Translations under genes and position numbers: made by a program
In this document: positions 20,299-60,660 of the stretch, in pieces
Layout: each line of letters starts with the position of its first letter
Numbering within the stretch: the first letter of the stretch is position 1
The notes under the pieces: model-generated
Told to the model about the DNA's origin: nothing
Database searches by the model: none
What the model saw: the letters and a program-made list of their open reading frames with translations, nothing else
NCBI GenBank assembly: GCA_000403495.2
Contig: KE159810.1
Span: forward strand, 435,001 to 499,000
Source: Lachnospiraceae bacterium 10-1
GTDB taxonomy: Bacteria; Bacillota; Clostridia; Lachnospirales; Lachnospiraceae
DNA: 64,000 nt
Direction: 5' to 3'

Positions 20299-20443
20299 CG
20301 GGAGTTTGACACTTCCTTTTAAACCTCATAACACACAAATCTTGTATTTAAGCCTGCTTTGGGCTTATTTTTTTGTCAAATTTGTAAAAATAATGCGTGC
20401 TAGTTTACACTAGTTGTGTTATAATACTTATGAGGTGATTTTT

Positions 20444-22189
20444 ATGTATGTTTCCATTACTGGTGTAGAGAATAACAAAGACGTTTATATCAACCAATCC
20501 TACCGGAAAGAAAACGGTAAGACTTCTTCCCGGATCTACCGAAAACTCGGAAAACTCAATGAGCTACTCCGACAGTTTGATGATGACTTTGATGCCATGA
20601 TGGCCTGGGCAAAATCTGAAGCCGAAAAAGACACAGCCGAATACAATGCCAGAACCTGCGATGTGTCGGTTTCTCTTTCCAGAAAAGCTTACATACCTAT
20701 GAATGAAGAACGCTGTTTTCAGATCGGATATTTGTTCCTCCAAAAACTGTGCACGGAATTAAAAATCGATGCCATCTGTCGAAAAATCTCTAAACGCCAC
20801 AAATACACTTATGACCTGGGAGCCATCTTAACTGACCTGATCTATGCAAGGATCCTTTCCCCTTCCAGCAGGCTCAGCAGTTTCTCTTACTGTAAAACAC
20901 TGCTTGAACCTCCAAAGTATGAACTGCCAAATGTATACCGTGCACTCTCGGTTATGGCTGAGGAATCTGATCTTATTCAGGAGCAACTCTACAAAAACTC
21001 AAACTTTGTTCATCCCAGAAACAAAAAAGTGCTCTACTACGACTGCACAAACTACTACTTCGAGATTGAACAGGAAGATGAACTAAGGCGCTATGGAAAG
21101 AGTAAGGAACACCGCCCTAATCCCATCGTTACAATGGGATTGTTTATGGATGCTGATGGAATTCCTCTGGCTTTTGACATCTTCCCCGGAAACCAGAATG
21201 AACAGACAACCTTAAAACCTCTTGAATCAAAGGTAATAAAAGATTTTGGCTGCAGTGAATTTATCTTCTGCTCTGATGCGGGGCTTGGAAGCAGAGCAAA
21301 CCGCAGATTTAACAGCCTTGCAGACCGTTCCTATGTTACCACCCAGTCTTTGAAAAAGATGCCCAAAGAAGACCGGGAAACTGCCCTGAAACCTACACAG
21401 TTTAAAAAAACCGGCTTTGATAAATGGATCGACATCTCCACACTGGATGAATCTGACCCGGAAGTTTACGAAACCATTTATTACAAGGAGATCCCTGTTG
21501 TAAATGGAAACATGGATGAAACAGTTATAGTTACCTACTCCCCCAAATACAAGGCATACCAGAAACGGATCCGTGAGCAGCAGATATCACGCGCCATAAA
21601 GATGATCGAACAGCCCGGAAGAAAACGCAAAAGCAAAAATCAAAACGATCCTGCCCGTTTTATTAAAACCACAAATGTGACAAATGATGGAGAGATCGCA
21701 GAAAAGAAAGTATGTGAACTTGATTCAGACAAAATCAGGGATGAGGAAAAATACGACGGCTTTTATGCTGTCATTACAAACCTCGAAGGCGATATAGGCG
21801 GGATTTTAAAAATCAACCGGCAGCGTTGGGAAATAGAAGAAAACTTCCGCATTATGAAAACAGATTTTGAGGCACGTCCTGTCTATGTCAGGCGGGAAGA
21901 CCGCATCAAAGCACATTTCCTCACCTGTTACATCAGCCTGCTTGTGTACCGCCTGCTTGAGAAAAAGGTCGGAAATAATTATACCTGTAATGAGATTCTA
22001 AGTACACTTCGTTCCATGCAGGTAACACTTTTGTCAAAGGAAAGCGGCTATATCCCTTCTTACAGGAGAACAGTTCTGACGGATGATTTACACAAGGCAT
22101 TTGGCTTTCATACGGATTATGAATTTATTTCAAAATCAGCCATGCGGAGCATAATAAAAAGTACCAAAACAGAAGAAGGGAAAAAATAG
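20444..22189 (+). CDS. IS1634-family transposase
   Basis: The 581-residue DDE transposase of the IS4/IS1634 type. Catalytic residues are likely D200 in VLYYDCTNYYFE, D278 in FCSDAGLGS, and E465/E466 in RWEIEENFRIMK, followed by the F-E-x-R-P-V-Y segment characteristic of the family. The start is ATG 20444, preceded by AGGTGA and an extended -10 promoter (TGTTATAAT, 20417-20425). The C-terminal half carries the long beta-rich insertion region before the catalytic Glu. No frameshift or stop interrupts it. Confidence 0.94.
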   Translation: MYVSITGVENNKDVYINQSYRKENGKTSSRIYRKLGKLNELLRQFDDDFDAMMAWAKSEAEKDTAEYNARTCDVSVSLSRKAYIPMNEERCFQIGYLFLQKLCTELKIDAICRKISKRHKYTYDLGAILTDLIYARILSPSSRLSSFSYCKTLLEPPKYELPNVYRALSVMAEESDLIQEQLYKNSNFVHPRNKKVLYYDCTNYYFEIEQEDELRRYGKSKEHRPNPIVTMGLFMDADGIPLAFDIFPGNQNEQTTLKPLESKVIKDFGCSEFIFCSDAGLGSRANRRFNSLADRSYVTTQSLKKMPKEDRETALKPTQFKKTGFDKWIDISTLDESDPEVYETIYYKEIPVVNGNMDETVIVTYSPKYKAYQKRIREQQISRAIKMIEQPGRKRKSKNQNDPARFIKTTNVTNDGEIAEKKVCELDSDKIRDEEKYDGFYAVITNLEGDIGGILKINRQRWEIEENFRIMKTDFEARPVYVRREDRIKAHFLTCYISLLVYRLLEKKVGNNYTCNEILSTLRSMQVTLLSKESGYIPSYRRTVLTDDLHKAFGFHTDYEFISKSAMRSIIKSTKTEEGKK

Positions 22190-31445: not shown

Positions 31446-32642
31446 CTATCCCCAGTAGATAGGCTTCCAGATCATTTTTCCGTCGGGCACGCCCATTTTC
31501 ACCAAATTGCCTCTGATCGTCTGGGCCAAATTTTCCTCCGTAATAGCAATTAATATCTGATCGTAGTCCATTGTTTTTACTGCTTCCGGTTCTTCAACCC
31601 AGATTCCATATATGTTATCTCTGCAATTCTGGTCAAGCCATCCTGTAACAGATGCATATTGACTATGTAAAATCTGTTTCACAAAAGACCTGCCCGCATT
31701 TCCTGCACCATAGATTACCAATCTGCATCCTTTATCAATGCTCTCATAAGGCGGCACACAAAGAATTCTGCCCATCTCTAAATTGTAAATTCCTCTAATC
31801 GCAATGATTAATAAATCTCTGATATATATATTTACCTGATTATTCTCTTCTTCCGCCAGGCTATCTGTTTTACATGATTTCAGCAGGTACTCCTGAAGAC
31901 ATTTCAACTCCTCAAAATAATTATATTTTGGAGCCTGGCTTATGCTGCCTTCTCTTTGTACATAGTGATAACCCAGACAAGTAACCACCGCAATTAAATT
32001 GCATTTTAAAATATATGGAAACACAGTTGCACCATCTTGACCAAGTTTTATTTTCTCATCAATTCCAAGTGACATTTTATATAGAGTGTCTCTAATAAAA
32101 ATCTTTCCCGGAATAAATGGCAGAACAGTATCTTTCGCCGCTATTTCGTTGTGTACAAAAAAAGGCACTATAACCTTTTCTATCTCCTCTTTTGCATATA
32201 AACCCGGATTTAAATTTGATTCCCAGATCTTATTATTTTTTTCATAATCTAATAGAAAGCTATTCGTAATAACTGCATCTGCTCTAACACTAAGCATTTT
32301 ACCCATTAAAATTTCAAAAAAATCTTTTTCAATCCAATCGTCACTGTCAATAAAAGATATGTAATATCCGCCTGCAAGCTTCATTCCTGCCTTTTGAGCC
32401 GCAGTTTGTCCTTTATTTTGCTGGTGAATCACTTTAATGTAATCATATTTTTCTGAAAATTCATCGCATATTTCACCAGATGAATCTGTGGAGCCATCAT
32501 CCACCAGAATCAGTTCATCCACCTGATAGCTCTGCTCCACTATGCTGGTCAAGCATTTTCTCAAATATTGCCCGGTATTATAAATTGCAATTACTACGGA
32601 TAATGTATCTTCATGCTTTCTATTCATTATTTTTAAGTCCAT
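31446..32642 (-). CDS. GT2 glycosyltransferase with C-terminal Rossmann-like module
   Basis: The 398-residue protein begins with a GT-A fold: LSVVIAIYNTGQYLRKCLTS, ELILVDDGSTDSS, and the metal-binding SFIDSDDW (DxD). After about residue 305 a Rossmann-like module follows (CRLVIYGAGNAGRSFVKQIL, WLDQNCRDNIYG, WVEEPEAV). Here the module is at the C-terminus, whereas in the neighbours it is N-terminal or internal. An internal ATG at 32627 is an alternative start. It overlaps the previous gene by 23 bp. Confidence 0.85.
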   Translation of the reverse strand: MDLKIMNRKHEDTLSVVIAIYNTGQYLRKCLTSIVEQSYQVDELILVDDGSTDSSGEICDEFSEKYDYIKVIHQQNKGQTAAQKAGMKLAGGYYISFIDSDDWIEKDFFEILMGKMLSVRADAVITNSFLLDYEKNNKIWESNLNPGLYAKEEIEKVIVPFFVHNEIAAKDTVLPFIPGKIFIRDTLYKMSLGIDEKIKLGQDGATVFPYILKCNLIAVVTCLGYHYVQREGSISQAPKYNYFEELKCLQEYLLKSCKTDSLAEEENNQVNIYIRDLLIIAIRGIYNLEMGRILCVPPYESIDKGCRLVIYGAGNAGRSFVKQILHSQYASVTGWLDQNCRDNIYGIWVEEPEAVKTMDYDQILIAITEENLAQTIRGNLVKMGVPDGKMIWKPIYWG

Positions 32643-34626
32643 CCAACTTTACATCCAAATATCTGCGCATATCATCTTTAATCCAATTTGTCCCGTCTGC
32701 TTTCTTCCGATCCCGAATTGTATAGTATGTAGGCACATCCTCCATTGGCAGTATTCCAAATGGAGCGTATACGTGACAATTAAAACAGGATTCCATCGGA
32801 CATGAATCTCCAACTTTATCTAATTTAGAGCCACTTATCCCATCCAAATACAAGTTACCTGCATTTTCATAGTAAACACAATGATCAATGCGCCCAGAAT
32901 ATAAATCAACAAAAAAGCTTAACGGCCCCGCATTGCAGTCCCTTCCCTTTGTTAAATAAAGCTTCATCCGCATATCAAACATTATGGAATCAAAGACTTT
33001 CCACGTATCGTTATACTCAGTAAAACTGCCGTTTGTTAAAAGTTTCATCTTATCATTTTCATTTCTCCCTATTGTAAGGTGTGGGAGCGCACCAAAGTTC
33101 TTCATTGAAAAATCCATCACCTCAGAAATAAAGGGAACCAGTTCATCATGAGGCATAATTTCTATGGTATAAGACGCCTGACTTTTTTCTATTACACGTA
33201 CTGCCTCTACAAATTTTTCCAGCAGTCCTTTGTTTTTTAACTGAATATAATGGAATGAAAGCTTAAATATGATATGTTTCGCATATTTTCCAGCTCGATT
33301 AATAATCTCTTCAATTTTTGCAACTGCTGTGCCATTTGTAACTATATGCAAGTAATGTCCTTCTTTTAGCAGTTCGATACAAATATCAACAAATTTATCA
33401 GCAAGCAGCGTCTCTCCGGAAGCGGTTAACCCAATCAGACAGCTTCCCCCTAATGCTTTTCTGCTCAGTTGTTTCCTTACAAATAAAGGGTTATGTGGAT
33501 TTTTTCTTCCAATATCTTCATATCTTCGATTTGGATTTGTCCTCAAATAGCAATATTCACAATCCAAATTACAGGTATTTTCAAGTATTGATATCCCAAT
33601 ATACTTCTTCATATCCTCAACTGCATCTGGATCACAATCTTCCGGAATGTAATTGCTTTTTTTCAGCATTTCATCTTCATACAGTCTCCATACACAATCC
33701 ATAAATTCTTCATAAGTACACCAACTGATATTCTTTTTATTGCAAATATCACCAATCTGGCATTGTGCGTCAAAATTGTTAATGGTAATAACAACTAAAG
33801 AAATATCAGAAGTTATATCGTCTGGTGCAATGCACTGAATACCATCAATCTTACTTCCCTGAATTCGCCTGTCCTTATCTACAAGCGCCTTCAAATTGCA
33901 GTAGGATGAAATAAAATTTTTGTGCTCATTAAAAATTTTTCCTGCCCCCCAGGTAACTAATGGCAGTTTATTTCTAACAACATCTTCAATAACTTTATTA
34001 ATATTAGAAACTCTTAACTGTTCAGCCTGCACTACAGCATCTATTTCATCTTTAAAAGTATTCCTGATAATTCCACATATATGAGCAGCTATTTTTTGAT
34101 TTGCATCATATGTAAAATGGGTGGCATCTCTATAATTTTTCGCTTCTATATTTTGCATGAAAGAATATAAATCATCAAAAAAATCTACCTTATCTTTTAA
34201 TACACATTCTGCTGCCTTGTTGTATTTTTCTATGTCTGAATTTTTTCTGAAAAATTCATCTGTATATCTTTCTTCCACAACAGGAGTCGTTGTGGCAAAA
34301 CATATTTTTGCCTTTGGAAATAATTTTCTTAATCGCAGGCAAACTTTTTCCAAATATTTTTTGTAATCATCTACACTGGTCTGCGCCTCATCTCCAAATA
34401 TACGCACCACGTCCCACAGTCCTGCATTCCAATATACCATGTCTATTTGCCTGTCACAGGTGACATACTTCTTCCATTCATAGAGCATCCGATACAGATC
34501 AGATGCAAATTTCCCCTGTTCCCTGGGGAATAAAACCTCACAACAGCCCCTTAAATTATATTTAACTATATCCCTATAGCCTAAACTGATACTATCACCT
34601 AAAAATAAAATTCCAGCTCTGTTCAT
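32620..34626 (-). CDS. Three-domain fusion: SGNH hydrolase, Rossmann module, radical SAM
   Basis: The 668-residue protein holds, in order: a SGNH/GDSL-like hydrolase (about 1-190; FLGDSIS with S12, WNAGLWD with N67, DATHF with D167 and H170), a Rossmann-like module (about 218-310; LPLVTWGAGKIF, LVDKDRRIQGSKIDG), and a radical SAM domain (about 340-650; NTCNLDCEYC with C352, C356, C359, and a C-terminal CVYYEN, CPMESCFNC). The SGNH part could add or remove acyl groups. No frameshift or internal start separates the parts, so it is a genuine fusion. Confidence 0.8.
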   Translation of the reverse strand: MNRAGILFLGDSISLGYRDIVKYNLRGCCEVLFPREQGKFASDLYRMLYEWKKYVTCDRQIDMVYWNAGLWDVVRIFGDEAQTSVDDYKKYLEKVCLRLRKLFPKAKICFATTTPVVEERYTDEFFRKNSDIEKYNKAAECVLKDKVDFFDDLYSFMQNIEAKNYRDATHFTYDANQKIAAHICGIIRNTFKDEIDAVVQAEQLRVSNINKVIEDVVRNKLPLVTWGAGKIFNEHKNFISSYCNLKALVDKDRRIQGSKIDGIQCIAPDDITSDISLVVITINNFDAQCQIGDICNKKNISWCTYEEFMDCVWRLYEDEMLKKSNYIPEDCDPDAVEDMKKYIGISILENTCNLDCEYCYLRTNPNRRYEDIGRKNPHNPLFVRKQLSRKALGGSCLIGLTASGETLLADKFVDICIELLKEGHYLHIVTNGTAVAKIEEIINRAGKYAKHIIFKLSFHYIQLKNKGLLEKFVEAVRVIEKSQASYTIEIMPHDELVPFISEVMDFSMKNFGALPHLTIGRNENDKMKLLTNGSFTEYNDTWKVFDSIMFDMRMKLYLTKGRDCNAGPLSFFVDLYSGRIDHCVYYENAGNLYLDGISGSKLDKVGDSCPMESCFNCHVYAPFGILPMEDVPTYYTIRDRKKADGTNWIKDDMRRYLDVKLDGLKNNE

Positions 34627-36006: not shown

Positions 36007-36984
36007 CTATTTTTGAGATTTTAAAATGTTTTGAGCCCATTCGAGGATTTTCATAACACGTATGCACTGTTCTGGTCCTGACATGGATTCCTTTCTTTTG
36101 ACTATGCAGTCGGCAAAATGCTCCAAACTATTCAAAAGAGAATCTTCAAATGATATATGCGGCATAAAAACGTCTCCTACTCTGGTCTTAAACTCATAGT
36201 CGCCATATATTTCTCCCTGGATAACGTCAATACCACTGTCATATATTTTTAACTTATTTATTGCCAAATCATCAAATACCACCATTTTTTTTGTACCCCC
36301 AATAGTAGTAGTACGCACTTTAACTGGTGAAATCCAACTTGAATTAATATTTACAAGTTTTTCCCCTGACTTCATGGTAAGATATGTAATATTCTCCTGC
36401 TTTCCACAGAACTTTGTCCCTACTATATCCAAATATTCCGGCTCAAATCCTCCTAATAAATAATCAATCACTGCAATGTCATGCACTGCCAAATCAAGCA
36501 TTGCATTAATATCTTTTCTAATTGGTCCCAGGTTAATCCGTGAAATATCAATATAAATAACATCTCCCAATTCACCATTATCAATCATCTTTTTTATATA
36601 TCGAACCACCGGATTATATATCATTAAATGATCACAATGTAAAATAACATTTTTTTCCTTAGCCAACTTAACCAATTGCTCTGCTAATGCAACATTTTTT
36701 GCCAAAGGCTTTTCTATAAAAACATCTTTTCCTGCTGTCATTGCATCCATAGCAATTTGAAAGCTGTATTCTGTCTGGGTACATATAGCCACTGCATCTA
36801 CTTCATCCAGTTTTTCCAGATAATCGTTTATTACTGGAACATTTGGCATTGTAGTTCTTGCCATCTCACATTTTTTTAAATCTGTCTCAACAAGATATTC
36901 AAGTTCAAATTTAGATGATAATATAAGTTTCTTTGCTACATTGTTTCCCCAGTAGCCATATCCAATCTGCATAATTCTTATCAT
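36007..36984 (-). CDS. Gfo/Idh/MocA oxidoreductase (WbpB-like)
   Basis: The 325-residue NAD(P)-dependent oxidoreductase opens with MIRIMQIGYGYWGNNVAKK (dinucleotide-binding GxGxxG), and has CTQTEYSFQIAMDAM and EKPLAKNV, typical of sugar 3-dehydrogenases such as WbpB. The start ATG 36984 has GAGGAG 8 bases upstream; the upstream frame overlaps the preceding radical SAM gene. With the DegT aminotransferases and the WbpD-like acetyltransferase downstream-upstream of it, it fits a pathway to a 3-amino or diacetamido sugar. Confidence 0.85.
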   Translation of the reverse strand: MIRIMQIGYGYWGNNVAKKLILSSKFELEYLVETDLKKCEMARTTMPNVPVINDYLEKLDEVDAVAICTQTEYSFQIAMDAMTAGKDVFIEKPLAKNVALAEQLVKLAKEKNVILHCDHLMIYNPVVRYIKKMIDNGELGDVIYIDISRINLGPIRKDINAMLDLAVHDIAVIDYLLGGFEPEYLDIVGTKFCGKQENITYLTMKSGEKLVNINSSWISPVKVRTTTIGGTKKMVVFDDLAINKLKIYDSGIDVIQGEIYGDYEFKTRVGDVFMPHISFEDSLLNSLEHFADCIVKRKESMSGPEQCIRVMKILEWAQNILKSQK

Positions 36985-36985
36985 T

Positions 36986-37903
36986 TTATGCTCTCCTCGT
37001 ATAAAGCTTTCCCAAATATCCATTTTGCATATAATCAATGCGCCAATGCTGACAATTTTGACACATAATATCATCTGCAATTTCACCATTATTGTGTGCT
37101 TCTCTTAACTGTTCGTACAATTTTGAATTCCATGCTTCTTCTATTGTCATTTTGTTAAGATTTAACCCCTGCAATCCACCTCTCCAATCGTAATTGCATA
37201 AAGCAAGTTGTCCATCCCAATATACCAGCAAATCTGTAAATAATTTACGACATGGTTTGCGTTCCGGCACTTCTTCCTCTAACAGTCTCTGAACTTCTAC
37301 GTTGCGGAACTTCCCATTATCATCATGCTCATAATATACACGTACTATATCCACATACTTTTTCCAAAATTCTATAAACTTTCCCTGCTCCGGCATATAT
37401 TCTTCAATTTCAACAGTTGAAACCTGCAGTGTTGGCACCTGCAAGCCTTTTTTTCTTTTTTCATCACATTTTTTACTTAAATAAATTACATTATCACGAC
37501 TTATATCCAGGTTTCCACACAATCTGGATTTTCTATATATTTCCGGGTCCAGTGTGTCCAATGAAAAAGATATAAAATCAATTCCAGTTTCCAACAGCTT
37601 ATCAGCCATATCATTTGTCAATTCAAAAGCATTGGTTGCATATTGAATTGGACCAATTCCTTTATCTTTAGCGTACTTTACACACTCTATAAATTCTGGA
37701 TGCAGCAAAGATTCTCCCCTGAAAAATATGACCAATTTAACAGGCAAATGATCTGATGCTTCATCAATAATTTTTTTATACAATTCCATAGACATAAATC
37801 CTATTTTCATGTTAACTGACTGTCTTGGACAAAATGTGCATGAAACATTACACTGATTTGTCAATTCTACTGTTATTCTATTTGGGAAATCTAATTTCTT
37901 CAT
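36986..37903 (-). CDS. Radical SAM/SPASM protein
   Basis: The 305-residue protein has the motif NQCNVSCTFC (C18, C22, C25) at its very start, IFFRGESLLHPE (a GGE-like segment), and a C-terminal SPASM-type cysteine set (CRKLFTD, LCNYDWRGG, CQNCQHW). Similar small radical SAM/SPASM enzymes in polysaccharide loci are of unknown function. It lies directly upstream of the Gfo/Idh gene (1-bp gap). Confidence 0.85.
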   Translation of the reverse strand: MKKLDFPNRITVELTNQCNVSCTFCPRQSVNMKIGFMSMELYKKIIDEASDHLPVKLVIFFRGESLLHPEFIECVKYAKDKGIGPIQYATNAFELTNDMADKLLETGIDFISFSLDTLDPEIYRKSRLCGNLDISRDNVIYLSKKCDEKRKKGLQVPTLQVSTVEIEEYMPEQGKFIEFWKKYVDIVRVYYEHDDNGKFRNVEVQRLLEEEVPERKPCRKLFTDLLVYWDGQLALCNYDWRGGLQGLNLNKMTIEEAWNSKLYEQLREAHNNGEIADDIMCQNCQHWRIDYMQNGYLGKLYTRRA

Positions 37904-38879: not shown

Positions 38880-40112
38880 TTAAAATCCATTTCCATTACT
38901 GAGAACTTCCCCAATATTTTCAATCACATATTCCTGTTCTTCTACTGTCAAATCTACATATAAAGGTAATGCAATAGACAATCGATCACATTCATATGCA
39001 TCAGGAAACATATTAGGCATATAGCCAAAACGCTTTCTATAATACCCTAACGTATGTACAGCATGTGTTCCCTGTCTTGTTGCAATTCCTCTGTCTTCCA
39101 ATTCCTGCATAATGTAATTTCTATATATACCGCAATCTTCAATGGACTTTCCCTTTAGCCTGTTCTTATCTAACATACACACATAGGATTGATAAGTATG
39201 AAAAAATCCTTCCGGTTCAACAGGAGTAATTAACTCTGGTATTCTGCTTTGAATCATCTCATTATATAAAGCAACTTTCTTCCTCTTTTCTGCAATAATA
39301 TAATCAAGTTTTTTCATCTGCGCTTGTCCAATTGCCGCCTGAAGATCTGTCATTCGATAATTATATCCTGCCTTTTCGAACTCAGGTAAAAGAAAGCCTT
39401 TTCCTTTATCCCTTTCATCTGCTGAAATAGTACAGCCATGAGACCTTAATTCCCTCAATCCTTTTGCAAGCTCTACATTATCTGTTAGAATCATACCTCC
39501 CTCACCGGTTGTTATCGATTTTCTTGGATGAAAACTGATACAGGACGGATTTCCAAATCCTCCCTGATGAACTTCTCCTATTTTTGAACCTAACGCACAT
39601 GCAGCATCTTCTATAATATGAAGATTATATTCCTGGGCAATGCTGTTTATTTTGTAAATATCACAACACAATCCAAATTCATGTACAGGAACAATCCCCC
39701 ATAAGGCATTACCGGTCTCTTTATTAATCAGTACACGATCTTTCTTATAATACTTCTGTTCAACAACTTCTAATAACTTATTGACATTAACATTAAATGT
39801 ATCTTTACATATATCCACTAATACAGGTATCGCACCAGTAGACAAAACAGCATTCTCAGTAGCAACAAATGTAAATGCCGGAACTATCACATCCATTCCT
39901 GCTCCCATTCCCTGCGCAGACATTGCCAAGTGAAGTGCGGTTGTACATGATGTTGTTGCAACACCTTCTGCAACTCCTTCATGCTCTGCTACATTCTTTT
40001 CAAATGCAGCAGCCCTTGGTCCTTGTGCTACCCACCCTGAATCCAGCACTTCTAAAGTTATCCTTTTCTCTTCCTCTGAAAAATATGGTTTAGTTACTGG
40101 TATTTTCTTCAC
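38880..40112 (-). CDS. DegT/DnrJ/EryC1/StrS aminotransferase
   Basis: The 410-residue PLP-dependent sugar aminotransferase has the usual blocks: GSWVAQGPRAAAFEK-like N-terminus, TTSCTTALHLAM, IVPAFTFVAT, IIEDAACALGS, SFHPRKSITTGEGGM with the PLP lysine in HPRKS, and GYNYRMTDLQAAIG. It shares the family with 40662-41861 but differs strongly from it, so the cluster makes two different amino sugars or two amino positions. The start is 2 bp before the acetyltransferase stop. Confidence 0.9.
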   Translation of the reverse strand: MKKIPVTKPYFSEEEKRITLEVLDSGWVAQGPRAAAFEKNVAEHEGVAEGVATTSCTTALHLAMSAQGMGAGMDVIVPAFTFVATENAVLSTGAIPVLVDICKDTFNVNVNKLLEVVEQKYYKKDRVLINKETGNALWGIVPVHEFGLCCDIYKINSIAQEYNLHIIEDAACALGSKIGEVHQGGFGNPSCISFHPRKSITTGEGGMILTDNVELAKGLRELRSHGCTISADERDKGKGFLLPEFEKAGYNYRMTDLQAAIGQAQMKKLDYIIAEKRKKVALYNEMIQSRIPELITPVEPEGFFHTYQSYVCMLDKNRLKGKSIEDCGIYRNYIMQELEDRGIATRQGTHAVHTLGYYRKRFGYMPNMFPDAYECDRLSIALPLYVDLTVEEQEYVIENIGEVLSNGNGF

Positions 40113-40113
40113 T

Positions 40114-40659
40114 TCAAATAAACTCCTTCAAATCGTATGACTCATTACACGCATGGCATTGTCCGCTCTCATCCAGCTTACATCCACATCTGCATACCCA
40201 GCCTATTTGCCGGGCTGGATTTCCTACCACTAAAGCATGACTTCTAACATTTTTTGTTACAACACTTCCCGCTCCGACCATTGCGTATTCACCAATTGTA
40301 ATACCGCATCTAATAGTTGCATTAGCTCCAATAGAAGCACCTTTTTTTACCAATGTTTTGGAGATTTGCCATTTTTCATTAAAAGCTCTTGGATACATAT
40401 CGTTGGTAAAAGTCATTGATGGGCCTAAAAAAACATCATCTTCCAATGTCACGCCATGATAAATATTGACATTATTTTGTATTTTAACACGATTTCCAAT
40501 AGTAACATTTTCATCTACATATACATTTTTACTTATAATACATTGTTCTCCAATTTTAGCGCCCTCACGCACCTGCGCCTGATTCCATATTTTAGAGCCA
40601 CTGCCAATTTCCGCTTCCTGATCTACCTCTGCAGTTTTGTGTATAAACACATTTCCCAT
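40114..40659 (-). CDS. Left-handed beta-helix N-acetyltransferase (WbpD-like)
   Basis: The 181-residue protein is a hexapeptide-repeat trimeric transferase: [89 protein letters not shown], and [13 protein letters not shown]. The N-D-x-Y-P-R-A-F and PARQIGW phrases are typical of WbpD/WlbB acetyltransferases that acetylate UDP-2-acetamido-3-amino sugars. The C-terminus carries an added Cys-rich tail, [19 protein letters not shown], probably a zinc knuckle. Confidence 0.88.
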
Positions 40660-40661
40660 AA

Positions 40662-41861
40662 TTACTTTTCCTCATAAAATTTGTTTGTCACATCAATTAC
40701 ATAGCGAACCTGTTCATCTGTCATTTCTGGAAAAATAGGAAGACATACAGATTGTAGCGATAATTTCTCAGCTATCGGTAAATGCGCATTGGGGTTTCCA
40801 CAATTTGAAGAGTTAAAAGCCTTCTGCTTATGCAATGGCACTGGATAAAACGTACCATTCCCTACGCCATTTTGCGTTAAGTAACTGCACAATTCCTGCT
40901 TATATTCTGACCGGACAACAAACTGGTGCCAGCATGATTTCATATCTGCTGAGTACACTGGTTTTCGTAATTTATCAGTCAAGCCTTCAAAATACATTGC
41001 TGCAATTTCCGCCCGTCTACTATTATAGTGATCTAAATGCCTTAGCTTCACAGATAAAACAGCTGCCTGCAATGCACCCAGCCTTGAATTATATCCTATA
41101 AGGTAATTGTAATATCTGTATGGATTATACAAACCCGTAACAGCCTCATTAATACTTAACTCCTCATCTCCTAAGCCTAAAAGGGCAAATGCCTCTGCTC
41201 CATTTTGTCCTGCACCATGATCTTTATATGCTCGAATAATCTTTGCCAGCCCATCATCATTAGTTGTTACCATTCCTCCATCTCCCGCACCTCCAAGATT
41301 CTTGGTCGGGTAAAATGAAAAACAGCCAACGTCGCCCAGCGTACCTGCTTTTTTGGCTTTGTATTCGCTTCCAATCGCCTGCGCATCATCTTCAATCACC
41401 TTTAGCCCATGTCTTTTTGCTATGTCCATAATACTGTCCATGTCACACATGGCCCCAAAAATATGAACTGGTAAAATAGCTTTTGTTTTGCTCGTAATTG
41501 CCTGTTCAATCTCTTTTGGATCAATGGTATAATCATCCTCTTTAATATCAACAAAAACAGGAATTGCTCCTGTTGAAGCAATAGCTTCGGCTGTTGCAAA
41601 AAAAGTAAACGGTGTTGTTATGACTTCATCTCCGGGCTGCACATCACATGCTTTTAGTGCAAGCACAAGTGCATCTGTTCCATTTGAACATGTCCCAACA
41701 TGCCTGACAGATAAATATTCCTCCATTTGTTTTTCAAAATTTCGAACATATGTCCCTTCAACATAAGAACAGCTCTCCATCACTTCCAAAATCAGAGGCT
41801 CTACTTCACCTTTAATTTCTTTATATTGCATTTTTAAATCAAGAAATGGAACTTCCATCAT
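40662..41861 (-). CDS. DegT aminotransferase (WbpE-like)
   Basis: The 399-residue PLP enzyme begins [16 protein letters not shown], with [43 protein letters not shown] (PLP lysine in PTKNLG), and a typical C-terminal DegT part. This sequence type (PFLDL, Y/F-P-T-K-N-L-G) is that of sugar 3-aminotransferases like WbpE and QdtB. With the WbpD-like acetyltransferase and Gfo/Idh, it completes a 3-amino-sugar path. An alternative start is the second Met. Confidence 0.9.
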
Positions 41862-41881: not shown

Positions 41882-43135
41882 TCATAATTGTTTAATAATG
41901 AACTCTCCATCTTCCCAATATGAACCCCCAAATGTACCTGCTTTTATAGCTTCAATTGCCTTAATAATATGCCTGGCTTGTCTAATTGGTGTATGTTTTT
42001 CATATACCATCTTTCTTCCATTATCTGCTATGTACTGCATCTCTTTAGGATTTTTAAACAAGTAATCACAAATTTCCAAAATATTGTCCGGGCTAACCAT
42101 AATCATATTTTCCCAATCCTTAAAACCATAATTCTTAAGAGGTTTAATGTTCTGGCATAGCAATAAAGCTCCTCTAGCTGGTATTTCTGCATACTTTCTT
42201 ACTAACTGATTTGCGCAACCACCGCAAGCATAGCCAATTTTTGACTGCCTTAATGCAATATTATAGCTTTCTCTCCACATAACAACAGATTCCCTCGTCA
42301 ATTTTGAATCTATGTATGGGCATGGAGCTATTAATTTTGTATCAAGCATTTTATCTTCTTCATGTCTATATATTGTCTGGGAAACACAAGATTCAGATGT
42401 ACGATAGGCAAAATTTCTTTCATAATACTGGTCATACACTTTGTAGCCAGATGTTCTCATTATATTTGCAATTTTCCCCCTCTCCGGGTAATAAAAAGCA
42501 TCTAAATTTCCTGGTATAGTTATATCGTACATCCTGTCCTTAAGTGGGTATGCAAAAAATTCTTTGGGACTAACGGTACTATATGACATCGATATTATCC
42601 TGGCTTTATTTTTTTCACAAAAATCAAAATATCGATTTGTGCCCCCCTTTTTCCTCATTTCTTCGTCTACAATCAGCAGAGGAAAATACTCAATTCCATT
42701 TCCCCAAAAGTAAAATCCAGAAAACAATAATTCATCAATGCATTTTTCCCAAACATCTGTAAATGTATATGTATCAAATTGATATAATAATATTTTTACA
42801 GCCTCAACCAGCTTTGCCTCTTTAACAATATTATCTGCCCATCTTATTGCCTGGTATATACTAAAGTCAGACATAAAATATCTGTGCCAATGAAAAGCCA
42901 ATCGTATATCCAAGTATTCCTGCTGCAACATTGCCAGGGAAAAATCTAAGATCAAAACATTATATCCACCATTTTCTTTCCAAAAATCACCTAATCCTCT
43001 TTCCATACTCTCTTTCGAAACATAGCCAGGTCCAAAAAAATCCACCTGAGAAATTTCCAAAAATGCCTGTACATTATTAATATGCATATCATTTGCATGT
43101 TCATGGTTCATAGTAACAAATAATATTTTATTCAT
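41882..43135 (-). CDS. CgeB-like glycosyltransferase
   Basis: The 417-residue protein is probably a GT-B glycosyltransferase. The C-terminal region SPDNILEICDYLFKNPKEMQYIADNGRKMVYEKHTPIRQARHII resembles the Glyco_trans_1_2/CgeB domain, while the N-terminal part contains DFFGPGY and LILDF. There is no membrane segment. Donor and acceptor are unknown. Its start overlaps the MaoC gene by 8 bp. Confidence 0.68.
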   Translation of the reverse strand: MNKILFVTMNHEHANDMHINNVQAFLEISQVDFFGPGYVSKESMERGLGDFWKENGGYNVLILDFSLAMLQQEYLDIRLAFHWHRYFMSDFSIYQAIRWADNIVKEAKLVEAVKILLYQFDTYTFTDVWEKCIDELLFSGFYFWGNGIEYFPLLIVDEEMRKKGGTNRYFDFCEKNKARIISMSYSTVSPKEFFAYPLKDRMYDITIPGNLDAFYYPERGKIANIMRTSGYKVYDQYYERNFAYRTSESCVSQTIYRHEEDKMLDTKLIAPCPYIDSKLTRESVVMWRESYNIALRQSKIGYACGGCANQLVRKYAEIPARGALLLCQNIKPLKNYGFKDWENMIMVSPDNILEICDYLFKNPKEMQYIADNGRKMVYEKHTPIRQARHIIKAIEAIKAGTFGGSYWEDGEFIIKQL

Positions 43136-43526
43136 CTAACATCACCTTTGCATTTCCCAAAATGACTTCTGCATTGTCCTGATTTACAATAACTGTTTCC
43201 AAAAATAAAATCTTTCCTTCAATCTTCATTACTTTCACAGTAGCAGTAACCATATCTCCTATATATACAGGCTTAACAAATTTTAAACTCTGTTCTAAAT
43301 AAATTGCCCCCTGCCCCGGCAACTGCATTCCTATAACAGCTGATATCAAAGATGCAACTAAAATTCCATGACAGATTCTTTTTCCAAATCTTGTATTTTT
43401 CGCTGCTTCTGCATCAATATGTACCGGATTAAAGTCACCTGAAATCTTAGAAAATTCATACACATCTTCTTCTGACATAACCTTTGACAATCGAGCTGAA
43501 TCGCCAATTTTAATATTCTTAATCAT
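43128..43526 (-). CDS. MaoC-like hydratase (hotdog fold)
   Basis: The 132-residue protein has the R-specific enoyl-CoA hydratase signature SGDFNPVHID with the D-x-N-P-x-H dyad, then FGKRICHGILVASLIS. It resembles PhaJ-type hydratases, which convert crotonyl-CoA to (R)-3-hydroxybutyryl-CoA. It overlaps the LpxD-like acyltransferase upstream and the glycosyltransferase downstream, so the likely role is to supply a 3-hydroxyacyl group for a sugar. Confidence 0.82.
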   Translation of the reverse strand: MIKNIKIGDSARLSKVMSEEDVYEFSKISGDFNPVHIDAEAAKNTRFGKRICHGILVASLISAVIGMQLPGQGAIYLEQSLKFVKPVYIGDMVTATVKVMKIEGKILFLETVIVNQDNAEVILGNAKVMLDE

Positions 43527-44436
43527 ATCTGTCCCTCAAAGTTTTTGCCGGAATTCCAGCAACTACTTTTCCCTTAGATACATTTTTTGTTACAACAGCA
43601 CCGATACCTGTAAATGCATTATTTTCAATACAAACACCATCAATCACCAGTGTTCCAGGCGCCAACCATACATTTTCTTCGATAGTAGTGCTCCCAGAAA
43701 TCACTACACCTGCTGCAAGCATTGTTCTTTTTCCTATGTGATCATTATGAGCAATATGGCATAAATTATCTGTTTTTACATAATCCTCAATGACCGTATC
43801 CGCCAAACACCCACGCGAAATTGTATTATTGGCTCCTATTGTTACATGACTTCCAATTACTACCCTACCCAAATGAGGAATTGCAATAGGATTGCCTTCC
43901 TCATCTTTGTAATATCCAAAGCCAACTGCACCTATTACTGTCCCCGATTCTATTTTTGTAAAATCACCTATTACTACCTTGCCTTGTATTGAGACATTAT
44001 GAAGAATCTCAACATTATTTCCTAATATAACTTCAGGTCCCACATAACTATGATGACCTACATATACATTCTGGCCTATCATCTTAGTTTCCACTACCGC
44101 TGTCGCTTCTATAATTTTTTCTCTGTTTTCCTGATCCATATGTCCAAAAAATTTAGATACTATCCTAAAATAAGTCCGGCGCACATTTTCTACATAAACA
44201 ATTGAAAATGCTGCATTATCAATAGCATCCCCCTTCTCTGCTACTAAAACCAGGCCTTCTATCTTGTTCAATTCATCAATATCCACTTTTTCCAAACTGC
44301 CAGCCCATGTTATGGAATTTGCTTTCAAACTATTTAAAGCACAAAATGAATTAAAAACTATTTCCATTTTCCCATAATATTCATACGGTATATTAGCTTC
44401 CTTTAAAAAATGCAGTATATCAATAATTTTTATCAT
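43519..44436 (-). CDS. LpxD-like N-acyltransferase
   Basis: The 305-residue protein has an N-terminal alpha/beta domain and a hexapeptide-repeat domain as in UDP-3-O-acylglucosamine N-acyltransferases: AVVETKMIGQNVYVGHHSYVGPEVILGNNVEI, AVGFGYYKDEEGN, HLGRVVIGSHVTIGANNTISRGCL, CHIAHNDHIGKRTMLAAGVVISGS. The His in AHNDH is the LpxD catalytic base position. A Gram-positive does not make lipid A, so it probably acylates an amino sugar of this cluster with a short hydroxyacyl chain. It overlaps the MaoC gene by 8 bp. Confidence 0.83.
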   Translation of the reverse strand: MIKIIDILHFLKEANIPYEYYGKMEIVFNSFCALNSLKANSITWAGSLEKVDIDELNKIEGLVLVAEKGDAIDNAAFSIVYVENVRRTYFRIVSKFFGHMDQENREKIIEATAVVETKMIGQNVYVGHHSYVGPEVILGNNVEILHNVSIQGKVVIGDFTKIESGTVIGAVGFGYYKDEEGNPIAIPHLGRVVIGSHVTIGANNTISRGCLADTVIEDYVKTDNLCHIAHNDHIGKRTMLAAGVVISGSTTIEENVWLAPGTLVIDGVCIENNAFTGIGAVVTKNVSKGKVVAGIPAKTLRDRYD

Positions 44437-45193
44437 ACATTTTTTCCTTCGTTACATTCACCCTATTGCATTTCTCAAGATCACTTTTATAAATTTCCAG
44501 GCTTTTTTCCATCCGCCCCTTTGCACAGCGCTCTACCCTTTCATATGGAAACATGCTGCACTCCTGCCACCATACCGGATGCGTCAGAACTTGAAATTTG
44601 GATGAATTATCCAAACTCATTAATATATTTTCCAAACGTTGAAATCTCCAATATCCATTAGAATCAGAACAATACATCAGATTGTTTCTCACATTATCGC
44701 CATACACATTATATAGTCCTCCAAGCTCCTCATATGGAAGTAAGTGCCAGCTTCCTCCTACATCTGGATTATGAAAAGACATATGTAATATTTCGACATC
44801 CAATATTGACTCTAGCATATTTTTCTCGAATAATATCTTTTGCTCTAAACCACCAATATCCTCTGTACTTAAATTGTAAAAAGAAGGTTCAAAATGCAAA
44901 CCTATAATTGCACTTTCAGAAATAGTTTTTAACATTTTAACAATCTCTTTTTCTAAAACACTATAAAATGAACTGTGCATATAAACAAAATAATATGCTT
45001 TTATCCCCAATTCCTTCTCTATTTGATACAATGCCAATGCGCGATTTACTGAAATGTCTATATCATGGCGCCATACAACTCCATTTGTTTTTATGCATTC
45101 TTCATATGAAGCAAAATGACTTTTCTCCTGAACAGTTCGCAATAATCTTTTATAATTGTCTTCTGTAAAATCTTCTATATAATAATTCATCAC
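44420..45193 (-). CDS. Polysaccharide deacetylase-like protein
   Basis: The 257-residue protein has the deacetylase-like motif VVWRHDIDISVNRALAL (catalytic/metal Asp pair), IGLHFEPSF, MSFHNPD and a final VLTHPVWW (His). This set is close to the NodB/carbohydrate-esterase 4-type fold but is more like the small PgaB/HD-type branch. It would remove acetyl groups from an amino sugar before other acylation. It overlaps the LpxD-like gene by 17 bp. Confidence 0.7.
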   Translation of the reverse strand: MMNYYIEDFTEDNYKRLLRTVQEKSHFASYEECIKTNGVVWRHDIDISVNRALALYQIEKELGIKAYYFVYMHSSFYSVLEKEIVKMLKTISESAIIGLHFEPSFYNLSTEDIGGLEQKILFEKNMLESILDVEILHMSFHNPDVGGSWHLLPYEELGGLYNVYGDNVRNNLMYCSDSNGYWRFQRLENILMSLDNSSKFQVLTHPVWWQECSMFPYERVERCAKGRMEKSLEIYKSDLEKCNRVNVTKEKMYDKNY

Positions 45194-46511: not shown

Positions 46512-48038
46512 TTACAAAACCTCTTCCAAATAATAAATTCCGTTATAAAAAGCGCCGCAGATAGAATCATAATCCTGCCATGCATAAGTGGTAAGGGATA
46601 ACCAGATCACAGCATGTAAAAGCTTTATTTCCGCTCTATCTGTCTTTGTAAGTTCAAAGAACTTATCTTCCATGTCCTCCCAGTGATTTGAAGCAATTTC
46701 CAGTTTGATTCCTTCCTCTCCATTATTTCCAATATGGAGTCTAAAATCTTTTAAATTAAATCTGTCATAATTTCCAACAATGGAATAATACATCTTAGCC
46801 CAGTCATATCTCACATCCCCAAACAATTCGCAATACCCAAAATAGCCTCTTGGATCAATCAAAACCGGATCTCCGTTTTCCCGCAGCATCATGTTGGAAA
46901 ATGTGCAGTCCCCATGAATAAAATGAAACTGCCCACAAGTCTGATTTAACTTTTCTAAAACTTTTTCCAATTCTCTTTTATAAAAATAAACATTTCTGCA
47001 GGTTCTTCCATTGACCAGGATTTTTTTCTCTCTGGCAAATGGAACCAGATCCTGAATTTGTGACAGTCTGTTAAAAGTCTTATTAAAATAAGCCTCTTTC
47101 AAACTGAAGGTATCCGCAGGCATGCTTTCCGCCCGATGAATTTTTTTCAAGGAATTTACCAGTTTCTCGAGAATATTTGTTTTCAATGTGGTGCTCAGTT
47201 CTGAAGCTTCGTAGATATTTTTCCCTTTGATATATTCCATTTGCAGGGGCTGTGTGCTGTATATTTCAGGGAGTATTTCTATATTTAATTTTCTGGCTTT
47301 TTCATACCATGCACGTTCTCTGACTGCAAGCTTATCCCCCTGTTTATCAACAGGTTCCTTCATCAGGCAGTTGCCGGTTATGGTTATTTTGTTAAAGGGC
47401 CTGCATTTGGATTGTTCCAGCTTTTCATATTCTTCTATCAGCCCGAATTCTCTTGTTCCTGCCAGACTGGTTTCCTGATAACATATCCGGTTTTGCTGCA
47501 TCCACCTTACCAGTTCTCCGCTTTCAGGAATCTGAGCCAGTTTTGCCTTGTCTGTGAACAAAAAGAAACCTGCTACACCATGTTCTTCTGACCGCTTTTC
47601 TTCAAATTCTCCATCCTGATAACTCCACCTGCATGGAAATGTCCGGGATATTCCAGCATAATCATTTACCGGCTGCGCCATGCCGTCTTCATACTCTTTT
47701 GGCAGTTCAAAGTTATCAGGTAAAATAAGGTCAGACCACACCAGCATAAACGATTGATTTTCAGGTATTAAATCAAGCGCCTGCTTCACACCTGCGCATG
47801 TACCTGTCCCTGACGCCTCCACAATCTGATACTTCACATCTGCAAAGGCCTCAAGATAGTTTCTCATAACTTCTTTTTTATAATCAGCGATAATCACAAA
47901 ACGCTTATCCGAATATTTTCGAAAAAGATGAAACAGCATGGGTAAATTATCTACCGGAACCAATGCCTTGGGTTTATTTTCTGTTAAATATTTCAGCCGG
48001 GTGCCTTTTCCGCCTGCCTGCACTACGATATAATCCAT
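46512..48038 (-). CDS. Nucleotidyltransferase-kinase fusion protein
   Basis: The 508-residue protein joins an N-terminal sugar nucleotidyltransferase (VVQAGGKGTRLKYLTENKPKAL, a GGxGTR-PK loop; WSDLILPD) and, from about residue 240, a kinase of the APH/choline kinase type (FIHGDCTFSNMM catalytic loop; VLIDPRGYFGY metal-binding). I start at ATG 48038 (AGGAG upstream); a longer frame overlaps the recombinase-like gene. One protein could phosphorylate and activate the same small sugar or amino alcohol. It is the first biosynthetic gene of the operon and abuts the SIS isomerase. Confidence 0.83.
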   Translation of the reverse strand: MDYIVVQAGGKGTRLKYLTENKPKALVPVDNLPMLFHLFRKYSDKRFVIIADYKKEVMRNYLEAFADVKYQIVEASGTGTCAGVKQALDLIPENQSFMLVWSDLILPDNFELPKEYEDGMAQPVNDYAGISRTFPCRWSYQDGEFEEKRSEEHGVAGFFLFTDKAKLAQIPESGELVRWMQQNRICYQETSLAGTREFGLIEEYEKLEQSKCRPFNKITITGNCLMKEPVDKQGDKLAVRERAWYEKARKLNIEILPEIYSTQPLQMEYIKGKNIYEASELSTTLKTNILEKLVNSLKKIHRAESMPADTFSLKEAYFNKTFNRLSQIQDLVPFAREKKILVNGRTCRNVYFYKRELEKVLEKLNQTCGQFHFIHGDCTFSNMMLRENGDPVLIDPRGYFGYCELFGDVRYDWAKMYYSIVGNYDRFNLKDFRLHIGNNGEEGIKLEIASNHWEDMEDKFFELTKTDRAEIKLLHAVIWLSLTTYAWQDYDSICGAFYNGIYYLEEVL

Positions 48039-48040
48039 TT

Positions 48041-48658
48041 TTAATTGACTCCTGCATAATGAGTGCTTTCTTTCGCTACTTTCGCTCTTCTGTAAAATGT
48101 TGTTCTGCTCAGCCCGCACATATCAGCCGCTTTCTCTACTGAAATTTCTTTATTCAGCCATTGGTTATAAGCCTTTGAAAAGTTTGGCGCCGGGTTCTGC
48201 GGTCTGCCGAATATAATTCCTCTTTCCTTGGCCTCCACAATGCCTTCCCGCTGCCTGCTCCTGCGGACATTACTCTCTGATGCTGCCACATACTCCAGCA
48301 TGTTCAAAACAATATCAGCTATTCCAAATTCATAATCCGAATTCTCCCTTCGTGTATCAATTGAAGGCATGTCCATTACCACAATGTCAGCTTTCTTTTC
48401 CCTAGTCAAAACTCTCCATTGCTCACAGACTTCTTTATACCCATCCCCTAATGAGGAGAGATTACAGATATACAGCAAATCGCCCTCCTGTATTTTTTGA
48501 AGCATCAATTGATATTGTGGAAATTTGCGGTCTTTCTTTGTAGGATAATCCAGAAAAATATTTTCCTCTGATACCTGAATGTTTCGCATGATATTTACTT
48601 TGTCTATACTTTCTTTATCCCCGGCAGGAATCCTTAAATATGCATATGATTTATGCAT
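48041..48658 (-). CDS. Serine recombinase homologue lacking catalytic residues
   Basis: The 205-residue protein aligns without gaps over its first 80 residues to the intact recombinase at 48888-49493, but the catalytic Ser11 is Pro (codon CCT), and D68, R69 and R72 are S68, S69 and D72 (NLSSLGDG instead of SIDRLGRN). Arg9 remains. The C-terminal helix-turn-helix (EISVEKAADMCGLSRTTFYRRAK) is well kept. It should bind DNA without recombining, and as the leader gene of a 24-kb glycan operon it is probably a regulator. RBS GAAGGGG lies 7 bases upstream of ATG 48658. Confidence 0.85.
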   Translation of the reverse strand: MHKSYAYLRIPAGDKESIDKVNIMRNIQVSEENIFLDYPTKKDRKFPQYQLMLQKIQEGDLLYICNLSSLGDGYKEVCEQWRVLTREKKADIVVMDMPSIDTRRENSDYEFGIADIVLNMLEYVAASESNVRRSRQREGIVEAKERGIIFGRPQNPAPNFSKAYNQWLNKEISVEKAADMCGLSRTTFYRRAKVAKESTHYAGVN

Positions 48659-48887: not shown

Positions 48888-49493
48888 TTATTTGGATATA
48901 TTTGCTTTCCTTTTTCTGGCCCGATAATAAAACGCTCCTGTTTTCAGTCCACACATCCTGGCAGCTTCATCTGCTGTAATCTCCTTTGACATCCATTTAT
49001 TGTAAGTGCTGTTAAAATCCGGTGCTTTCTTTTCCGGCCTTCCGAACTTTACGCCCCGCCTTCTGGCGGCCTCAATGCCCTCCATTTGACGTTCCTTAAG
49101 TGTTTTTCGTTCATTCTCACTAACATAACTAAGTAGTGCCAGAACCAGATCCGCTATCAACGTTCCCAGAAGATCCTTTCCTTTTCTGGTATCAAGCAGA
49201 GACATATCCAGTATCACAATATCCACCTTCTTCTCTTTTGTCAGAATTCTCCACTGTTCCAGAATCTCTTCATAATTTCTTCCAAGCCTGTCAATGCTTT
49301 TCACATACAGAATATCTCCCTCTTCTAAATTCCTCAGCAGCTTCCTGTACATTGGACGATTAAAATCTTTTCCAGATTGCTTATCAATGTAAATATTCTT
49401 TTCTTCAACCCCTGCTTCCAACATTGCAAGCAATTGTCTGTCTTCATTCTGATGCTGTGTACTTACACGCACATATGAGTATGATTTTCCCAT
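48888..49493 (-). CDS. Serine recombinase (resolvase/invertase family)
   Basis: The 201-residue protein has all catalytic residues of the resolvase/invertase family: YVRVSTQHQ with nucleophile Ser11, Arg9, and SIDRLGRN with R69 and R72, the long E-helix and a C-terminal HTH (EITADEAARMCGLKTGAFYYRARK). It would cut and rejoin DNA at short inverted or direct sites. It has its own terminator and is adjacent to the inactive paralogue. I found no clear invertible segment near it. Confidence 0.88.
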   Translation of the reverse strand: MGKSYSYVRVSTQHQNEDRQLLAMLEAGVEEKNIYIDKQSGKDFNRPMYRKLLRNLEEGDILYVKSIDRLGRNYEEILEQWRILTKEKKVDIVILDMSLLDTRKGKDLLGTLIADLVLALLSYVSENERKTLKERQMEGIEAARRRGVKFGRPEKKAPDFNSTYNKWMSKEITADEAARMCGLKTGAFYYRARKRKANISK

Positions 49494-58654: not shown

Positions 58655-59575
58655 ATGAGTAAAACATTCGCAGATTTAATTGCCAAAGTTAATGAATGCG
58701 GCACCAAAAAGGTAGCGGTAGCCGTAGCACAGGATTCTGCCGTATTAGAAGCAGTATCCGCTGCAAAAGAAAGAAAGATTGCTGATGCAATCTTAGTAGG
58801 CGACGAAAAGAAAATCAGGGAAATTGCTTCTTCCATGAACATTGATTTAAGCGGCTTTGAAATTATTAACGTAGAAGACACCACACAGGCTGCTCTTACT
58901 GCCGTAAAACTTGTTCATGACGGAAAAGCTGATATGTACATGAAAGGTCTAATCGACACCAAGGGCTTTTTAAAAAGCGTTCTGGATAAAGAAGCAGGCC
59001 TTCGGACCGGCAAGCCTTTATCCCACGTCTGCGTATTTGAGATCGAAGGAATTGATCATCTTCTTTTCCTTACCGACGTAGCATTTATTCCTTATCCTAC
59101 TCTGGAAGATAAAGTAAATATTATTCATAATACTCTGGAAATTACCGAAGCATGCGGCATTACAAATCCCAAAGTAGCACCTCTTGCAGCAGTTGAGGTA
59201 ATCAATCCTAAAATGCCTGCTACCGTTGAAGCAGGAGAACTTACACAGATGAATAAGGATGGAAAAATCACAGGATGTATTGTTGACGGCCCTTTGTCCT
59301 TAGATCTGGCCATTGATCCGGAAGCTGCAAAACATAAAGGCGCTACCGACAGAGCCATTCAGGGTGATGCGGATGTTCTGCTTTTCCCTGATATTCACGC
59401 AGGTAATCTTGTGTACAAGTGCCTGGTACATACCGCAAAAGTCATTAACGGAAATATTCTTACAGGAACCAAGGCTCCCGTAATCTTAACCTCCCGTTCT
59501 GATGATTTTGAAACCAAGGTAAATTCCATTGCTTTAGGTGCTGTTGTTGCCGAAGCTATGGCAAAAAATAATTAA
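58655..59575 (+). CDS. ptb: Phosphate butyryltransferase
   Basis: The 306-residue enzyme converts butyryl-CoA and phosphate to butyryl phosphate, the first step of butyrate formation by the kinase route. It has the phosphotransacetylase/Ptb fold: [55 protein letters not shown], and [21 protein letters not shown] near the C-terminus. The next gene, butyrate kinase, follows after 17 bp with GGAGG, a typical ptb-buk operon. Confidence 0.95.
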
Positions 59576-59592: not shown

Positions 59593-60660
59593 ATGGCTAT
59601 TAAAAGTTTAATCATCAACCCTGGTTCCACTTCCACCAAAATTGGCGTGTTTGAAGATGAAACCCTTTTATTTGAAGAAACCCTTCGCCACTCTACTGAG
59701 GAAATTGCCCAATATGCTTCTATTGTAGATCAGAAGGATTTTCGTAAGCAGATCATTTTAGACCTTTTAAAAAGTAAAGATTTCGACATTAACTCTTTGC
59801 AGGTGGTTGTAGGACGCGGCGGCATGTTAAAACCTATTCCCGGCGGCACCTACGCAGTAAGTGATGATCTTCTTGAAGACTTAAAAGTTGGTAAGCAGGG
59901 ACAGCACGCTTCCAACTTAGGCGGTATTCTGGCAAGAGAAATAGCCGACTCCATTAGTGTTCCTTCCTATATAGTAGATCCGGTTGTTGTTGATGAATTA
60001 ATGCCAATTTCCAGATATTCAGGCGTTCCCGAGCTTCCACGTACCAGTGTGTTCCATGCGCTGAATCAAAAGGCAGTTGCAAAACGCTTTGCGAAAGAGC
60101 AGGGCAGGGCATATAATACCTTAAACCTTGTAGTCGTACACATGGGCGGTGGTGTTTCCGTAGGCGCTCATGAGCAGGGACGTGTAATTGATGTATTTAA
60201 TGCCTTAGACGGCGATGGTGCCTTTTCTCCAGAAAGAGCCGGTGCAGTTCCTTCCGGTGCATTGATCAAAATGTGCTTCTCCGGTGAATATACAGAAAAA
60301 GAAGTCTACAAAAAAATTGTGGGTAATGGCGGTTTCAATGCCTACGTCGGCACAAACGATATGCGTGATGTAGAAAAAATGGTAAATGAAGGCGACAAGA
60401 ACGCAGAAGAAGTGCGTGAAGCATTTATCATGCAGGTTGCTAAAAATATTGGTTCCATGTCATGTGTTTTAAAAGGAAAAGTGGATCAGATCATTATTAC
60501 CGGCGGCATCGCTTATGATAAAGTTGTTGTAAGCGGCTTAAAAGACAGAGTTGGATTTATTGCCCCCATTACTGTTTATCCCGGAGAAGACGAACTGCTT
60601 GCATTAGCACAGGGTGCACTTCGTGTTATGAATGGTGAAGAAGAGGCAATGACTTATTAA
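59593..60660 (+). CDS. buk: Butyrate kinase
   Basis: The 355-residue ASKHA-type kinase makes butyrate and ATP from butyryl phosphate. Motifs: [18 protein letters not shown] at the N-terminus, [28 protein letters not shown], and [11 protein letters not shown]. The spacing fits a transcript with ptb. It gives energy from butyrate fermentation and supports assignment to a butyrate-producing Clostridium. Confidence 0.95.

Follow-up and report, generated by a model that had tools for sequence, protein, structure and literature searches.

The analysed window, a stretch of 64,000 nucleotides from Lachnospiraceae bacterium 10-1, contains a run of sugar genes, all in one direction, that spans about 24.9 to 48.1 kb and has a G+C content of 35.7% compared to 41.5% in the rest of the window. 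Within this run a MaoC gene (43128-43526, minus strand), an LpxD-like gene (43519-44436, minus strand) and their neighbours form one tight block. MaoC overlaps both flanking genes by 8 bp, namely the LpxD-like gene and the gene for a glycosyltransferase-like protein (41882..43135, minus strand; PF13524), and the LpxD-like gene in turn overlaps its upstream neighbour (44420-45193, minus strand) by 17 bp. The 8-bp overlap of MaoC and the acyltransferase gene had been reported in a sequence-only reading of this DNA, and both reading frames were confirmed on the minus strand at the coordinates given there. Also on the minus strand are genes for a DegT-type sugar aminotransferase (40662..41861; PF01041, 2e-114; PDB relatives QdtB and WbpE), a hexapeptide sugar acetyltransferase (40114..40659; closest solved relative 3mqg, 7.3e-53) and, from domain searches, a second DegT-type aminotransferase (38880..40112) and a Gfo/Idh sugar oxidoreductase (36007..37089) whose homologues recur in LpxD-like loci. 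The same searches identified formyltransferase-like, pyruvyl-transferase-like, SIS and three radical-SAM proteins in the run and, across nearly all genes of the operon, gave no match to KAS III, SDR or ACP families.

Several other features of the run were recorded. One of the three radical-SAM proteins (32620-34626, 668 aa) combines a GDSL-like N-terminal half with the radical-SAM domain, and next to the SIS protein a nucleotidyltransferase domain is fused to an APH-type kinase domain (46512-48119). A tandem pair of similar resolvase-like genes (48041-48658 and 48888-49493) at the upstream end of the run is a possible switch or mobility element, and an IS1634-family transposase (20414-22189) lies near the downstream end of this lower-G+C region. 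Flagellin glycosylation was considered as the destination of the glycan; of the window genes that were searched, none was recognised as flagellar.

The MaoC protein (132 aa), the only one in the source genome, is a predicted PhaJ-like hydratase. It matched PF01575 in a domain search (E 1.9e-22) and aligned over its full length with A. caviae PhaJ (1iq6; E 2.5e-28). The D-x-N-P-x-H motif aligned between the two proteins, its catalytic residues here being D31 and H36, in agreement with the PhaJ-like dyad noted earlier, and PhaJ L65 and V130, which we take to be chain-length residues, correspond to I65 and V128. The sequence GAGGG lies six bases ahead of the start codon. We propose that MaoC converts crotonyl-CoA to (R)-3-hydroxybutyryl-CoA.

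The 305-residue product of the LpxD-like gene, also single in the source genome, is a predicted N-acyltransferase on the basis of its subfamily match, its catalytic histidine and its phylogenetic placement. It just missed the cut-off of the NCBIfam LpxD subfamily PRK00892 (206.6 bits; cut-off 207) and scored 177.4 bits against the LpxD equivalog TIGR01853, under the cut-off of 242.5. The earlier observation that the AHNDH histidine of LpxD is kept was borne out by alignment: H230 of HIAHNDH, the catalytic histidine of the AHN motif, corresponds to E. coli LpxD H239 and is invariant among 16 homologues. The LpxD helix and the GFGY segment are also present. The single window protein gave no direct Pfam match for the N-terminal domain, and a profile of its homologues matched the LpxD N-terminal uridine-binding domain over residues 13-136 (i-E 4.6e-14). 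The C-terminal helices that follow the beta-helix are absent, the protein end aligning to E. coli residue 308 of 341; true LpxD controls were 348-354 aa with charged tails. These helices are presumably the ACP-binding part of LpxD, and their absence therefore suggests that the LpxD-like enzyme uses a CoA donor. A fold model built from three sequences (pLDDT 61) matched LpxD at TM-scores of about 0.3 and adds little. Lipid A was rejected for the source genome because no LpxC was found there, as the sequence-only reading had anticipated in stating that lipid A was not expected.

The gene overlapping the LpxD-like gene on its upstream side had been overlooked. Its 257-residue product is a CE4-like protein, proposed to be a sugar de-N-acetylase from its RHDID motif and its recurrence beside LpxD-like genes, and would supply the free amine for acyl transfer. 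The window protein itself gave no Pfam match; the RHDID motif is conserved in its family, and 5/10 family members weakly matched Polysacc_deac_1 (PF01522; best 0.0022). In a PDB profile search with the family the top matches were deacetylases, at values below significance (0.038-0.26), and the fold model was poor (pLDDT 45). The deacetylase identity is thus weak by sequence.

A de-N-acetylase gene, either PIG-L or CE4-like, was found no more than four genes from the LpxD-like gene at 25 of the 26 loci collected, L024 being the sole locus with neither type within that distance. Many of the loci carry homologues of the window protein and others carry PIG-L instead. Of the loci collected, 21, among them the window, came from the first searches and five were added by a later search across the phylum; these five were examined after the pattern had been noticed, and all of them fit it. 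Three authentic LpxD loci (348-354 aa) from the phylum-wide search, which lie in lipid A-type settings as judged from gene sizes and order, showed no such neighbouring de-N-acetylase. PIG-L was a single gene in all seven genomes tested, where 0.6 to 1.8 kb separate it from the LpxD-like gene; none was found in the source genome. Uniform placement would give this proximity a probability near 1e-20, a null that is overly generous, since glycan clusters are where both genes reside, and an alternative null that assumes about 100 kb of glycan clusters per genome gave roughly 1e-10. The deacetylase type switches several times across the LpxD-like tree, and this repeated exchange argues that the activity, rather than a particular gene, has been kept. 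At L041 the LpxD-like gene is interrupted by a stop codon and lies beside PIG-L and a NeuB-like gene.

A complete thl-crt-hbd-bcd-etfBA set lies in one cluster elsewhere in the source genome, and phosphate butyryltransferase (ptb; 58655-59575, plus strand) scored 439 bits against TIGR02706 (cut-off 410.5), confirming the ptb assignment of the sequence-only reading. This gene lies outside the cassette, at a distance of 15 kb, as does the following plus-strand ORF, which ends at 60660 and had been named butyrate kinase. With the butyrate operon in the genome and ptb 15 kb away, crotonyl-CoA should be made. The operon has its own crotonase, the single one in the genome, and MaoC is thus not needed for butyrate; we consider it unlikely to be the butyrate hydratase of this genome. 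Crt and Hbd are, we presume, of the (S)-specific type, so that a dedicated enzyme would be required for the (R) form.

Gene order, overlaps, protein families, catalytic residues and the recurrent association are direct observations. In the explanation that we think probable, the cassette would be a deacetylate/re-acylate module for an amino sugar in glycan assembly, resembling LpxC-LpxD and fed by (R)-3-hydroxybutyryl-CoA. The CE4-like protein would take the N-acetyl group off a nucleotide-linked amino sugar, and the PhaJ-like MaoC would make (R)-3-hydroxybutyryl-CoA by hydrating crotonyl-CoA, an enantiomer not expected from the Crt/Hbd butyrate pathway. Next, the LpxD-like enzyme would put the (R)-3-hydroxyacyl group on the free amine, and the re-acylated sugar would be taken up by a glycosyltransferase. 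The logic would be that of LpxC-LpxD with a short CoA donor replacing the long acyl-ACP. The donor, the sugar, the glycan, every substrate and the reaction order are what we infer from the genes. The Gfo/Idh, DegT and 3mqg-type acetyltransferase genes of the operon, which recur at LpxD-like loci, suggest that a 2,3-diamino sugar linked to UDP may be the one that is acylated. A point against the module is that the operon also encodes another acetyltransferase and a formyltransferase-like protein.

The genes accompanying LpxD-like genes elsewhere bear on the donor. In the LpxD-like tree the window, L016, L017 and L019 form one clade (support 100/99), and all four loci have a dedicated source of 3-hydroxyacyl-CoA, which is MaoC at two and a thiolase with a FabG/PhaB-like reductase at two. 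At L019 MaoC lies two genes downstream of the LpxD-like gene, with one sugar phosphotransferase gene between them, and at L016 and L017 the thiolase and reductase genes lie at the LpxD-like gene without a hydratase. Going by predicted function, these are two different routes to (R)-3-hydroxybutyryl-CoA, and the donor supply is exchangeable. MaoC also directly adjoins the LpxD-like gene at L026 and L038, in a second, distant LpxD-like clade, and a reductase gene stands directly beside it at L039 and L040. Within a partial genome sample, in which a scan of genome contigs gave only two relatives, MaoC adjoined the LpxD-like gene in 4 of the 10 genomes holding both (directly, except in G049, where it is one gene away), which is more than chance by a rough binomial that assumes uniform placement (8e-9). 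The earlier proposal that MaoC-made (R)-3-hydroxybutyryl-CoA feeds the acyltransferase is supported by the replacement of MaoC by thiolase and reductase in L016 and L017, by MaoC-acyltransferase fusions and by a butyrate pathway with its own crotonase. Two further observations were made at these loci: at L044 and L046 the hexapeptide or LpxD-like genes number two to four per locus, and a ThsB/TIR-like protein (L017:6907-7329) is encoded immediately upstream of PIG-L and thiolase in its LpxD-like cluster.

The same machinery might install a different acyl group, with MaoC taking a longer or branched substrate or acting as a dehydratase, and the resulting amide carrying either some other 3-hydroxyacyl group or an enoyl group (crotonyl), which might be drawn from acyl-ACP. 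MaoC enzymes can work in both directions and differ in the chain lengths they accept, the clusters of L020 and L039 contain an ACP-like gene, and related ACP-linked MaoC clusters form a clade of their own (100/99). We regard this as unlikely for the window, where none of the operon genes was recognised as ACP and I65 and V128 resemble short-chain PhaJ if those positions have the role we assume; moreover, the thiolase and reductase of L016 and L017, lacking a hydratase, would yield 3-hydroxybutyryl-CoA and not crotonyl-CoA. No obvious adjacent 3-hydroxyacyl supply was seen at 18 of the 26 LpxD-like loci and, together with the ACP-like genes of L020 and L039, this suggests that the donor or acyl group may differ between clades. 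Those 18 loci would also suit an LpxD-like enzyme that is an ordinary N-acetyltransferase, as would the second hexapeptide transferase of the operon and the frequent use of acetyl-CoA by related hexapeptide enzymes; the MaoC product would then go to another acyltransferase of the cluster or become an O-linked group or free metabolite. However, removing an N-acetyl group only to restore it would be senseless at 25 of 26 loci, and in the close clade the LpxD-like gene itself is accompanied by genes for MaoC, thiolase or reductase, and we give this explanation only a slim chance.

A search with the window MaoC found relatives in 40 of 299 genomes of the family. Among the neighbourhoods read, 11 glycan clusters, that of the window included, contain MaoC with an acyltransferase, and in four of these the partner is an LpxD-like enzyme. 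MaoC overlaps a PglD-like transferase gene at L089 and L095, neighbours a GNAT gene at L097 and, at L098, lies beside a hexapeptide gene that comes after FdtA. It is fused to a hexapeptide transferase in a single protein beside NeuB (L096:6062-7087), an unfused homologue of that transferase lying two genes from MaoC at L090, and to a GNAT domain in another single protein (L092:6174-7139). A genome holds about ten to fifteen hexapeptide genes, so that roughly one random neighbour in a hundred would be of this kind. In the MaoC tree a clade (96/96) unites ten of the 11 glycan-cluster genes with one hbd-linked MaoC, and the window MaoC lies outside it on an unresolved backbone; its pairing with the LpxD-like gene may thus be a separate recruitment. 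The remaining MaoC genes are ACP-linked or lie beside fermentation genes (bcd-etf, hbd, CoA-transferase) or unrelated genes. That MaoC belongs to fermentation and is placed here incidentally would fit those fermentation neighbours, the ptb gene only 15 kb off and a best NCBIfam match to a MaoC-phosphotransacylase fusion (PRK08190, 131 bits, below cut-off), but is very improbable given the crotonase already in the butyrate operon, the overlap of MaoC with both neighbours and the 11 glycan-cluster MaoC genes near, adjoining or fused to acyltransferases.

A second, separate arrangement was seen among MaoC matches at 30-37% identity (L110, L111, L114, L116, L123, L125 and others). It consists of a protein of about 600 aa, FkbH-like where searched (L114, L125), an ACP-like gene and MaoC, often with an SDR and a GNAT or PglD-like acyltransferase. 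Judged by its gene content, this arrangement resembles a route in which a carrier protein serves to provide glycans with another hydroxyacyl group.

The closest parallel to the proposed module is LpxC-LpxD of lipid A synthesis, in which de-N-acetylation is likewise followed by (R)-3-hydroxyacyl transfer by an LpxD-fold enzyme. The catalytic histidine and N-terminal domain of LpxD are common to both; here, in contrast, the deacetylase is CE4-like or PIG-L rather than LpxC, there is no lipid A pathway, and the acyltransferase has no C-terminal helices and probably uses a short acyl-CoA. The anthrose operon antABCD of Bacillus anthracis likewise serves a surface sugar of a Gram-positive bacterium, one whose amide is a branched 3-hydroxyacyl group. 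One of its genes encodes a crotonase-type enoyl-CoA hydratase, compared to the MaoC type here, and we know of no LpxD-like enzyme in it. Anthrose differs in being a 4-amino sugar made via transamination. Its acyl group is 3-hydroxy-3-methylbutyryl (PMC10050317, PMC9614988). In the viosamine island of Pseudomonas syringae (vioS, vioR, acp, vioB), acyl-supply genes are coupled to a sugar N-acyltransferase for a surface glycan (PMC3927599). That system differs from the cassette in its KAS III, reductase and ACP supply, its 4-amino sugar and its lack of a deacetylase or hydratase, and its supply set of KAS III, reductase and ACP with acyltransferase was not found in searches of nearly all genes of the window operon. 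The Acinetobacter acyltransferases QhbA/WeeI are predicted to acylate a UDP-amino sugar with acetyl or 3-hydroxybutyryl, and a D-3-hydroxybutyryl amino sugar form is cited for that genus; the target is a 4-amino group from transamination, unlike in the cassette, and the passage on these enzymes describes no dedicated hydratase (PMC3628348). A Burkholderia flagellin sugar with 3-hydroxybutyryl is also listed (PMC12355684). PhaJ of PHA synthesis resembles the window MaoC over its whole length and in its catalytic dyad but partners a PHA synthase rather than a glycan acyltransferase.

Sugars with 3-hydroxyacyl amides are therefore already known, from the 3-hydroxybutyryl forms of Gram-negative bacteria and, as a close analogue, Bacillus anthrose. 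The combination, in Gram-positive clusters, of an LpxD-like enzyme with a deacetylase and a supply of the PhaJ type was not found in the literature searched; neither MaoC nor LpxD-like genes had a prior description in Gram-positive glycan clusters in that search, which took in few subscription papers. We put at about even the chance that Bacillota hold a widespread, unrecognised counterpart of LpxC-LpxD, in which a PIG-L or CE4-like deacetylase, exchanged several times, and an LpxD-like transferase would replace the N-acetyl group on a nucleotide sugar with a different acyl group, and plug-in donor modules (PhaJ, or thiolase with reductase) would divert fermentation intermediates into surface glycans. 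If so, the logic of LpxC and LpxD would extend to Gram-positive surface glycans and butyrate fermentation would be tied to the chemistry of the cell surface. The signature of a deacetylase, an LpxD-like gene and MaoC or thiolase/reductase would then predict which bacteria make N-hydroxyacyl sugars.
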